Part shown: positions 27,858 to 29,995 of the stretch, piece after piece
Layout: every line of letters begins with the position of its first letter
How positions within the stretch are numbered: position 1 is the stretch's first letter
Assembly (NCBI GenBank): GCA_025455865.1
Contig: JALOLS010000021.1
Location: 1-33,711 of the forward strand
Direction of reading: 5' to 3'
Origin: Thermoleophilia bacterium
Lineage (GTDB): Bacteria; Actinomycetota; Thermoleophilia; Miltoncostaeales; Miltoncostaeaceae
Length of the DNA stretch: 33,711 nt
Made by a program: the position numbers and the translations under genes
The notes under the pieces: generated by a model
Databases searched by the model: none
What the model was told of the DNA's origin: nothing
Seen by the model: the letters and a program-made list of their open reading frames with translations, nothing else

Positions 27858-27872
27858 ATGGTGCGCCCGTGA
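27858..27872 (+). CDS. Four-codon mini-ORF overlapping the second M23 start
   Basis: ATG GTG CGC CCG TGA, whose TGA overlaps GTG 27869 of the next gene (GTGA). No SD is seen. It may be chance, but it repeats the coupling seen at 3914 and 9007. Confidence 0.2.
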   Translation: MVRP

Positions 27873-29089
27873 CTCGTCACGGGCGCACCGGCCGCGCCAA
27901 GCGGCGCCTGGCCGCCGGCCTCGTCGCCGGCGTGCTGACCGTGTGCCTCGCCACGGCGGGGTCGGGCGCGCCGTCGGCCGCCGACCGCAAGGCCGACGTC
28001 GACCAGCGGCTGCAGCGGGCCGAGGCGCGCCTCGTGCGGGCGCGGGACCAGGAGGCCGTCCTGAGCTCCGAGGTCTCGGCCTACACCGGGCGCATCCGCC
28101 GCATCGAGCGCCGGCTGGTGCCCCTTGAGACCCGCAGCAACCGGCTGGGCAACGAGCTCGCCGTGCTCGAGGGGCGGCTGGCCGACCTGACCGGGCGCCT
28201 CGACGCCGAGCGCGCGAACCTCGCCCGGGCCCGGGCCCGCCTGGTGACCCAGCGCGAGGTCCTGGGGACGCGCCTGCGCGCGATGTACCGGCGCGACGAC
28301 CCCGACCCGCTGCTGGTGCTCCTGGAGTCCGGGAGCATCGCCGGCGCGGTGGCGGCGGTCGACCAGATCGAGCGGGCGGCCGACCTCGACAAGGAGGCCA
28401 TCGCCTCGGTCGAGGACTACGCGCGCGAGGTCCGGGAGGCCCGCGACCGCCTGGCCGACCTGCGCGCGGGGGTGCAGCGGTCGGAGCGGCGGGTCAAGGC
28501 GGCGGCCCTCCGGGCCCGCGGGGCGGCACGGGCGCTGCGCGCCGAGCGCGACGACCTCGGCCGCTTCCGGGACGGGCGGCAGCGGCTGCTCTCCCGGGTG
28601 CGCGGCGACCGCGAGGACCTCGAGGTCGAGACCCGGGGCCTCAGGGAGCGCTCGCTCAGGCTCGGCCGCGAGATCGCCCGCATCCAGGGGGTGAGCGGGG
28701 CCAGCATCGACATCACCCCGTCGCAGGCCGGCCTGGTCTGGCCGGTCAACGGCCCGCTGACCTCGCCCTTCGGCATGCGCTGGGGCCGCATGCACGAGGG
28801 GATCGACGTCGGCGTCGGGGAGGGCACCCCGATCTCCGCGGCGAAGGCCGGCACGGTCATCATGGCCGGCTGGGGCGGGGGATACGGGAACCTGGTCGTC
28901 ATCGACCACGGCGGGGGGCTCTCCACCGCCTACGCCCACCAGAGCCGCATCGCGGTCGCCGTCGGCCAGCAGGTGGGGCAGGGGAGCGTGATCGGCTACG
29001 TCGGCAACACCGGCCACTCGTTCGGCGCCCACCTGCACTTCGAGGTGCGGGTGAACGGGTCGGCCACCGACCCGCTGGCCTACCTGTGA
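27869..29089 (+). CDS. EnvC-like exported coiled-coil protein with M23 domain
   Basis: 406 residues. Basic N-terminus, then a signal helix (LAAGLVAGVLTVCLATAGSGA). Residues about 40-255 are long heptad-rich coiled coil (RKADVDQRLQRAEARLVRARDQ, ETRSNRLGNELAVLEGRLADL), as in EnvC and RipC-like proteins that regulate wall amidases. The M23 domain begins GLVWPVNGPLTSPFGMRWGRMHEGID, with His309 and Asp313, and HLHFE at 388-392. All zinc ligands appear to be present, so it may be an active endopeptidase rather than a mere activator. GTG 27869 lies 32 bases after the upstream gene, so the two are probably co-transcribed. Confidence 0.88.
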   Translation: MTRHGRTGRAKRRLAAGLVAGVLTVCLATAGSGAPSAADRKADVDQRLQRAEARLVRARDQEAVLSSEVSAYTGRIRRIERRLVPLETRSNRLGNELAVLEGRLADLTGRLDAERANLARARARLVTQREVLGTRLRAMYRRDDPDPLLVLLESGSIAGAVAAVDQIERAADLDKEAIASVEDYAREVREARDRLADLRAGVQRSERRVKAAALRARGAARALRAERDDLGRFRDGRQRLLSRVRGDREDLEVETRGLRERSLRLGREIARIQGVSGASIDITPSQAGLVWPVNGPLTSPFGMRWGRMHEGIDVGVGEGTPISAAKAGTVIMAGWGGGYGNLVVIDHGGGLSTAYAHQSRIAVAVGQQVGQGSVIGYVGNTGHSFGAHLHFEVRVNGSATDPLAYL

Positions 29090-29126
29090 GGCCGGTGGCG
29101 CCGAGGTCGTGGATGCGTCCGGACGG

Positions 29127-29150
29127 GTGGTGTACCGTCCGCGCTACCAC
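29127..29150 (+). promoter_or_regulatory. TANNNT box and hairpin before the extended SD
   Basis: TACCGT (29133-29138) predicts a start near 29145. GTGGT (29127-29131) can pair with ACCAC (29146-29150), directly before AGAAAGGAGG. The promoter call is moderate because no clear -35 is visible. Confidence 0.4.
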
Positions 29151-29169
29151 AGAAAGGAGGTGGTCCAAC

Positions 29170-29205
29170 TTGATCGATGGCCATAGTGGAGGTGGCAGCA
29201 GCTAG
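29170..29205 (+). CDS. Micro-ORF (11 residues) behind the extended SD
   Basis: TTG 29170, nine bases after AGGAGG, reads MIDGHSGGGSS and stops at TAG 29203-29205. Its last codons form the 5' arm of the closing stem, so a translating ribosome would open that stem. An alternative ATG at 29177 in another frame gives a 14-residue peptide starting MAIVEVAAARG, but its SD distance (16 bases) is poor. Confidence 0.4.
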   Translation: MIDGHSGGGSS

Positions 29206-29292
29206 GGGGCGAGTCCCCTGAAGCGCAGCTGCAGCCCGGGGACAGGATGGTCCGGTTCCCGAGCGCCCTCTGGCAATCCACTGCTGTCACCG

Positions 29293-29328
29293 GGAGCCCC
29301 GCACGACGCGCGCGTCATGCGGGGCTCC
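29293..29328. terminator. Strong hairpin between the RNA locus and the UDG gene
   Basis: GGAGCCCCGCA / TGCGGGGCTCC forms an 11-bp perfect stem around the inner palindrome GACGCGCGCGTC. It overlaps the last codons of the minus-strand UDG gene (stop 29315-29317). There is no T-tract. It could serve both directions. Confidence 0.7.
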
Positions 29329-29995
29329 TGCCGTTCGGGCCGGCGAGCGCGAGGGCCCGGGCGAGGACCGCGTCGAGCATGGCCGGGGTGAGCCGGCCGG
29401 TGAAGGTGTTCTGCTGGCTGGGGTGGTAGCTCCCGATCAGGGTCCGCCCCCCGGCGGCGGCCTCGGCCCCGTGGCCGAAGCGGGGGCGGGGGCGCGGGGC
29501 CTCGAGCGCCCGCAGGGTCGCGTCCCAGGCCAGGCCGCCCAGGCAGACCAGCACCCGGGCCTCCGGGCACAGGGCGATCTCCCGGCGCAGGTACCCCAGG
29601 CACCGGTCGCGCTCCTCCGGGGTCGGGCGGTTGGCCGGCGGCGCGCAGCGCACCGCCGCCGTCCAGCGGGCGCCGAGGAGCCTGAGGCCGTCGGTGACCG
29701 CCACCGAGACCGGGCGGTCGGCGAGCCCGGCGCGGTGCATGGCGGCGACCAGGAAGTCGGCCGAGCGGTCGCCGGTGAACATCCGCCCGGTGCGGTTGCC
29801 GCCGTGGGCGGCGGGGGCGAGGCCGACGAGGAGGATGCGCGGGTCGGGGTCGCCGAAGCCCGGCAGCGGACGCCCCCAGTAGTCCTCGTCGCGGAAGGCC
29901 GCGCGCCGCTCGCGGGCCACCTGCTCCCGCCAGGCCACCAGCCGGGGGCAGGCCCGGCAGGCGACGACCTCCGCGGCGAGGGCCTCCAGGCTCAC
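29315..29995 (-). CDS. Family 5 uracil-DNA glycosylase (UdgB type)
   Basis: 226 residues. The active-site motif GLAPAAHGGNRTGRMFTGD and the late motif SYHPSQQNTFTG are those of UDG family 5, which has no catalytic Asp/Asn at the usual position. Iron-sulfur Cys candidates are C13 and C16 (CRACP), plus RCAPP and ALCPEA further on. The enzyme removes uracil and some oxidised or deaminated bases from DNA, a useful function in a very GC-rich genome. GTG 29995 is the start; the upstream hydrolase stops 25 bases away on the same strand. Confidence 0.92.
   Translation of the reverse strand: MSLEALAAEVVACRACPRLVAWREQVARERRAAFRDEDYWGRPLPGFGDPDPRILLVGLAPAAHGGNRTGRMFTGDRSADFLVAAMHRAGLADRPVSVAVTDGLRLLGARWTAAVRCAPPANRPTPEERDRCLGYLRREIALCPEARVLVCLGGLAWDATLRALEAPRPRPRFGHGAEAAAGGRTLIGSYHPSQQNTFTGRLTPAMLDAVLARALALAGPNGRSPA

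Follow-up and report, generated by a model that had tools for sequence, protein, structure and literature searches.

What is an exceptionally long Shine-Dalgarno (SD) sequence doing in a gap between two convergent genes? From the sequence of the window (the whole stretch of DNA analysed, 33,711 nucleotides), an earlier note had proposed that this gap encodes a stand-alone structured RNA with a micro-ORF, and had offered three ideas for its role: a translation-switched RNA, a 30S-binding decoy, or the mRNA of a conserved micropeptide. The existence of such an RNA is now strongly supported by comparative evidence, together with transcripts and ribosome footprints of its relatives. As for its role, the best explanation appears to be a stand-alone, translation-gated RNA that senses ribosomes, a reading that we hold tentatively, at a little under an even chance.

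The gap and its elements

The elements of the locus are as follows.

27869-29089, plus strand: M23 peptidase gene, left flank of the RNA gap
29110-29138, plus strand: putative promoter, with a -10 element TACCGT at 29133-29138 and a weak -35 element at about 29110-29115, placed by alignment with the block upstream of the homologues
29147-29152, plus strand: 5' strand of helix PA, CCACAG, pairing with 29184-29189 (covariation)
29151-29167, plus strand: extended SD, AGAAAGGAGGTGGTCCA (sequence and complementarity to the 16S tail)
29162-29165, plus strand: 5' strand of PB, GGUC, pairing with GGCC at 29179-29182 around the start codon (direct reading; weaker, clade-dependent support)
29170-29205, plus strand: micro-ORF TTG...TAG of 11 codons, MIDGHSGGGSS*, with its TAG at 29203-29205; start, stop and open frame kept in 105 sequences
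29184-29189, plus strand: 3' strand of helix PA, TAGTGG, within the ORF (covariation)
29190-29194, plus strand: AGGTG motif within the ORF, present in every lineage in differing reading frames
29191-29201, plus strand: 5' strand of helix PC, GGTGGCAGCAG, the last codons of the ORF (fold and pairing statistics)
29202-29211, plus strand: 5' strand of helix PD, beginning at the stop codon (minimum free energy, MFE, fold)
29212-29263, plus strand: inner variable hairpins, differing among relatives (MFE fold)
29264-29273, plus strand: 3' strand of helix PD (MFE fold)
29275-29280, plus strand: conserved one-sided bulge AATCCA, RAATCC/AAACC-like in most homologues
29281-29291, plus strand: 3' strand of helix PC, CTGCTGTCACC (fold and pairing statistics)
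29293-29328, plus strand: terminator-like stem (inverted repeat), reaching into the end of the convergent UDG ORF
29315-29995, minus strand: UDG-superfamily gene, right flank, convergent

The flanking genes are thus convergent as described, and the ORF of 11 codons does follow the SD. A scan of the window for consensus promoters and terminators found nothing. Just upstream of the aligned homologues, a TTGcc...TANNNT-like element stands at a constant place, from which the transcript would be expected to start at about 29145-29147, some six bases before the SD. The strong terminator-like stem predicted earlier is present at 29293-29328, but it has no U-run in the window; terminators at the corresponding place in several close relatives are U-rich. 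The stem extends past the stop of the UDG ORF (29315) into the 3' end of that ORF, and so may serve both genes.

The earlier note had taken the 16S tail from general knowledge in claiming that the SD pairs with 17 contiguous bases of it, one pair being G-U. This is correct, since two genomes of the same family carry exactly GGCTGGATCACCTCCTTTCT as 16S 3' tail (the 16S 3' end is not assembled in the window's own assembly). Allowing one mismatch at most, this locus is the single occurrence of the 14-base SD core, AAAGGAGGTGGTCC, in the 3.16-Mb genome. In productive initiation, the SD bases adjoining the start codon probably cannot pair with 16S, being too near that codon, and this nearness would permit a docked state as well as an initiating state. 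Such a surplus of complementarity, with the ribosome protection seen on relatives (below), would also suit a decoy whose extended SD titrates or parks free 30S subunits and whose short ORF merely clears the subunit. A decoy, however, needs neither a conserved start, frame and stop nor helix PA, helix PC or a pseudoknot, all of which are conserved, and effective titration requires a very high copy number; we consider it improbable.

Kinship with Ms_IGR-5

Searches of the window for tRNA and tmRNA, and for Rfam families at their gathering thresholds, returned no match. The covariance search suggested earlier nevertheless bore fruit below the cut-off: positions 29146-29334 align end to end (1-184 of 184) with RF02471, Ms_IGR-5, at 30.0 bits (E = 2.3e-5), where the gathering score is 45 bits. 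The window RNA is, on this alignment, a divergent relative of Ms_IGR-5 that, by the Rfam threshold, stands outside the family itself. The earlier note was unaware of this kinship, and had also missed helix PA and the upstream promoter element. The two RNAs share the 5' extended SD, a GAGGTGGC...CACC closing stem and a terminator-like 3' stem, and Ms_IGR-5 is a stand-alone gene, as the window RNA is by its gene layout. They differ in that the window RNA lacks the pseudoknot hairpin and reads AGGTG in another frame. The Rfam structure has no PA, since its first 13 positions are unpaired, and the family carries the description sRNA.

Matches to RF02471 were found in 30 of 149 Actinomycetota genomes, in a continuous grade from 176 down to 29 bits. 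By blastn, the window RNA was detected in 19 of 41 relatives (its own genome counted), all of the same family, and a motif pattern matched 190 of 396 Actinomycetota genomes, some of them by chance according to a reversed-pattern control. Homologues occur in most Miltoncostaeaceae-like (Thermoleophilia) genomes and are widespread in Actinomycetota. One genome of the same family has two copies of the RNA (L009 and L021) with different start regions. Three loci from metagenome assemblies titled 'Bifidobacterium breve' (L055, L060 and L115) have sequence near the window's family, so the titles look wrong; L060 has the RNA.

Ms_IGR-5 relatives of the window RNA are expressed: an RNA-seq transcript is on record in S. 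lividans (PMC8079986), S. avermitilis has an sRNA transcription unit (PMC8780764) and M. smegmatis the transcript ncMSMEG15794c (PMC10454040). In M. abscessus and M. smegmatis, Ribo-seq gave ribosome-protected reads on Ms_IGR-5 (PMC4974804). Searching the literature under alternative names turned up no functional study.

Synteny with M23 and udg genes was rejected as a defining context, because neighbour genes change from clade to clade; among the closest relatives of the window RNA, some do share udg-type neighbours. In one clade, f17, all 8 of 8 loci (L203-L210) have, 3' of the RNA and on the same strand, genes that by sequence inspection resemble a Na/phosphate cotransporter and phoU. This arrangement would be expected if the RNA were the leader or the attenuator of a gene 3' of it. 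In the window, by contrast, the next gene is convergent, elsewhere the neighbours vary by clade, and a terminator-like stem lies 3' of the RNA, which makes a leader very improbable. Variable neighbours, a promoter-like element and terminator of its own, and the Rfam annotation would suit an ordinary base-pairing sRNA, whose 3' domain or loop pairs with target mRNAs and whose translation is incidental or part of a dual function (compare SgrS/SgrT). Conservation is, however, centred on the ORF region and its pairing partners and not on an exposed seed, and the inner loops vary; this explanation, too, seems quite unlikely to us.

Translation signature and covarying helices

The ORF was compared in 105 distinct sequences, which are phylogenetically related, so that counts do not represent independent events. 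Most were collected by patterns containing the SD and AGGTG, the invariance of which is therefore overstated; the helices and the stop codon lie outside these patterns. In blastn and Rfam-model searches, where AGGTG is not required, nearly all matches still have it. A stop codon lies 8 or 9 bases 3' of AGGTG in 105 of 105 sequences (TAG in 89, TGA in 11, TAA in 5). The micro-ORF frame is open in 103 of 105, compared to 14 and 36 for the other two frames. A standard start codon stands at SD spacing in this frame in 83 of 105 sequences (3 and 7 in the other frames); counting CTG, ATT, ATC or ATA, found in 21 more, the total is 104 of 105, against 21 and 19. Across actinobacterial relatives the ORF is 10 to 15 codons long.

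The signature of a genuine ORF, and peptide patterns that recur within clades, such as SDS...TLEV and TREVAAG, would be expected if this were the mRNA of a conserved micropeptide that is itself active. Between lineages, however, the peptides are wholly unlike: MSDHCGGGSS in the window's clade and MSDSSHGTLEVAGR, MISHRTREVAAR or MSSDSSCVTVEVMRR elsewhere, with VCSGNQQRWLR as a further example. The frame of AGGTG changes as well, giving E-V (GAG-GTG) in most Actinomycetota, G-G (GGA-GGT) in the window's clade, and either G-G or R-W in Planctomycetota. Conserved residues, moreover, fall on conserved or covarying RNA bases. An active conserved peptide, the third of the original ideas, is thus a poor fit and in our judgement improbable. 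Since AGGTG is read in all three frames across lineages, what is conserved is the RNA and the boundaries of the ORF, not the peptide. Peptide and frame vary while start, stop and helices persist, so selection on translation itself is likelier; this comparison suggests that the act of translation matters, not its product.

Positions 29140-29335 are predicted to fold at -99.5 kcal/mol (z = -2.71); since 2 of 200 shuffles do as well, folding energy by itself is no more than modest evidence. The long-range stem of 11 bp, said earlier to have the final ORF codons as its 5' arm (29191-29201 with 29281-29291, here PC), is present in both the MFE and the centroid folds. Conservation and compensatory changes in the stems, on which the earlier proposal hung, both go well beyond chance.

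The strongest case is helix PA, formed between the hexamer immediately 5' of the SD and the hexamer immediately 5' of AGGTG; almost every actinobacterial sequence keeps this pairing in a single register without gaps. Among 51 rows picked for distinct PA helices, 82.4% of cells are paired, compared to 26 to 51% when one strand is slid; the covariation score is 0.650, compared to at most 0.166 when slid, and none of 500 shuffles reaches it. The three central pairs each change on both sides in 26 to 28 rows, and the bases at columns 7 and 30, which would make one of the six pairs, are unpaired in most rows. PA is absent from both the earlier note and the Rfam model. For PC, the end of the ORF is paired with the 3' CACC arm in 95.6% of cells compared to about 35% at one-base slides (34 gap-free rows), a fraction biased upward because the arm was located by best complementarity. 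In PC the pair types vary on both sides; within the window's clade, for example, A-U pairs are replaced by G-C in a compensatory manner.

In other actinobacterial clades, a pseudoknot, lying outside the RF02471 model, joins GGAC of the ORF to a GUCC loop 20 to 24 bases after the CACC arm: with the GAC and GTC anchors fixed, flanking positions pair in 123 of 184 cases, where shuffling gives 80 on average and 98 at most. The same GGAC/GUCC pairing was not supported in the window's clade. Support for the PB hairpin around the start codon is weaker, partial and clade-dependent. A pairing of the window ORF's GGCCAU with an inner loop was dropped, since close relatives do not have it.

Proposed ribosome gating and comparison with other RNAs

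These features can be assembled into a mechanism of translation gating. The RNA's own promoter would give a short transcript whose 5' end is a near-complete complement of the 16S tail. In it the SD would bulge out between helices PA and PB, and the loop of PB would hold the start codon. Loading there, a ribosome would translate 10 to 15 codons. Since the ORF codons provide one strand of each of three helices (3' in PA and PB, 5' in PC), with the stop codon at the PC/PD junction, a ribosome on the ORF must open these helices, and a translating or terminating ribosome would keep the RNA open. When no ribosomes initiate or elongate, PA and PC would close, as would the pseudoknot outside the window's clade. 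Occupancy would in this way report ribosome or initiation capacity, possibly through the stability of the RNA or through the 3' domain acting in trans. Gating is supported by the conservation of start, stop and frame, by covarying helices that share bases with the ORF, by the lack of peptide conservation and by footprints on mycobacterial relatives. Among the three original ideas, the translation-switched RNA fits best; that its fold switches in vivo is what we infer.

Comparable loci were found beyond Actinomycetota. In the phylum of a Gemmataceae (Planctomycetota) genome, 19 of 199 genomes had a match to a stricter pattern, and the control had none. Most planctomycete loci read have an extended SD, an ORF of 9 to 16 codons ending soon after AGGTG (with endings such as RRWLx, EVVAS and QQRGGTA) and, by eye, a complementary 3' arm. 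An AGGTG/CACC-type stem was noted in L273 (identical to L256) and L266-L284, at about locus position 1497 where flanks are complete. An Rfam search of one planctomycete RNA (L256) reached no family, and helix PA was not found in the same register in Planctomycetota. One genome in the phylum of a Myxococcales record (L286) has an extended-SD ORF, VSSCSTCTTREVVSF, like the actinobacterial TREV peptides; transfer or contamination is possible. Some Gemmatimonadota/Chloroflexi and other pattern matches (L252-L255, L257-L262) were rejected as chance or repeats, the surrounding architecture being missing.

In Alphaproteobacteria, CC2171 (RF01867) resembles the window RNA in that AAAGGAGGTGATCC/T is followed at 7 nt by the start codon of a short ORF, with a terminator-like stem as well. 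CC2171-like loci in Azospirillum, Skermanella and Methylobacterium have MSHC... ORFs of 24 to 26 codons. The gathering score of 75 bits is reached neither by the window (21.1 bits) nor by the planctomycete RNA (27 bits), and the window ORF, MIDGHSGGGSS, is not the MSHC-type ORF of about 24 codons. The peptide of CC2171 is longer and partly conserved, and no AGGTG/CACC stem was seen; its likeness to the window RNA is one of architecture. Three CC2171-like RNAs (L288, L290 and L291, about position 700) lie on alphaproteobacterial plasmids or chromids; codons 3-5 in these have a possible pairing partner in a 3' GACAATGG-type strand. Two Azospirillum loci (L289 and L292, also about position 700) combine an extended SD and an MSHG start with an ORF of at least 57 codons that resembles a small secreted protein. 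A class of RNAs sensing ribosome occupancy, with an over-long SD and a self-folded ORF of 10 to 25 codons whose translation and not peptide is kept, might span Actinomycetota, Planctomycetota, Alphaproteobacteria and possibly Myxococcota, an extension that we regard as rather doubtful.

Ms_IGR-5 is listed in Rfam as an actinobacterial sRNA, found also in mycobacteria and Streptomyces, and we found no paper giving its function. A translated micro-ORF and a helix that covaries between 5' end and ORF across Actinomycetota make it a testable device; if translation does gate the RNA, cells would possess an RNA dedicated to reporting ribosome or initiation capacity. Short ORFs within structured small RNAs are known from SgrS/SgrT, RNAIII/hld and rnTrpL/peTrpL, and the position of a ribosome can alter folding. 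For these dual-function and leader-peptide RNAs a target gene or a role of the peptide is known, whereas in the window RNA the ORF itself forms the majority of the conserved helices. Extended SD motifs with long pairing and unannotated small ORFs have been described in Staphylococcus aureus (PMC13009471). There the extended SD is a general feature of mRNA initiation, whereas in the window it belongs to one RNA gene with a fold of its own.
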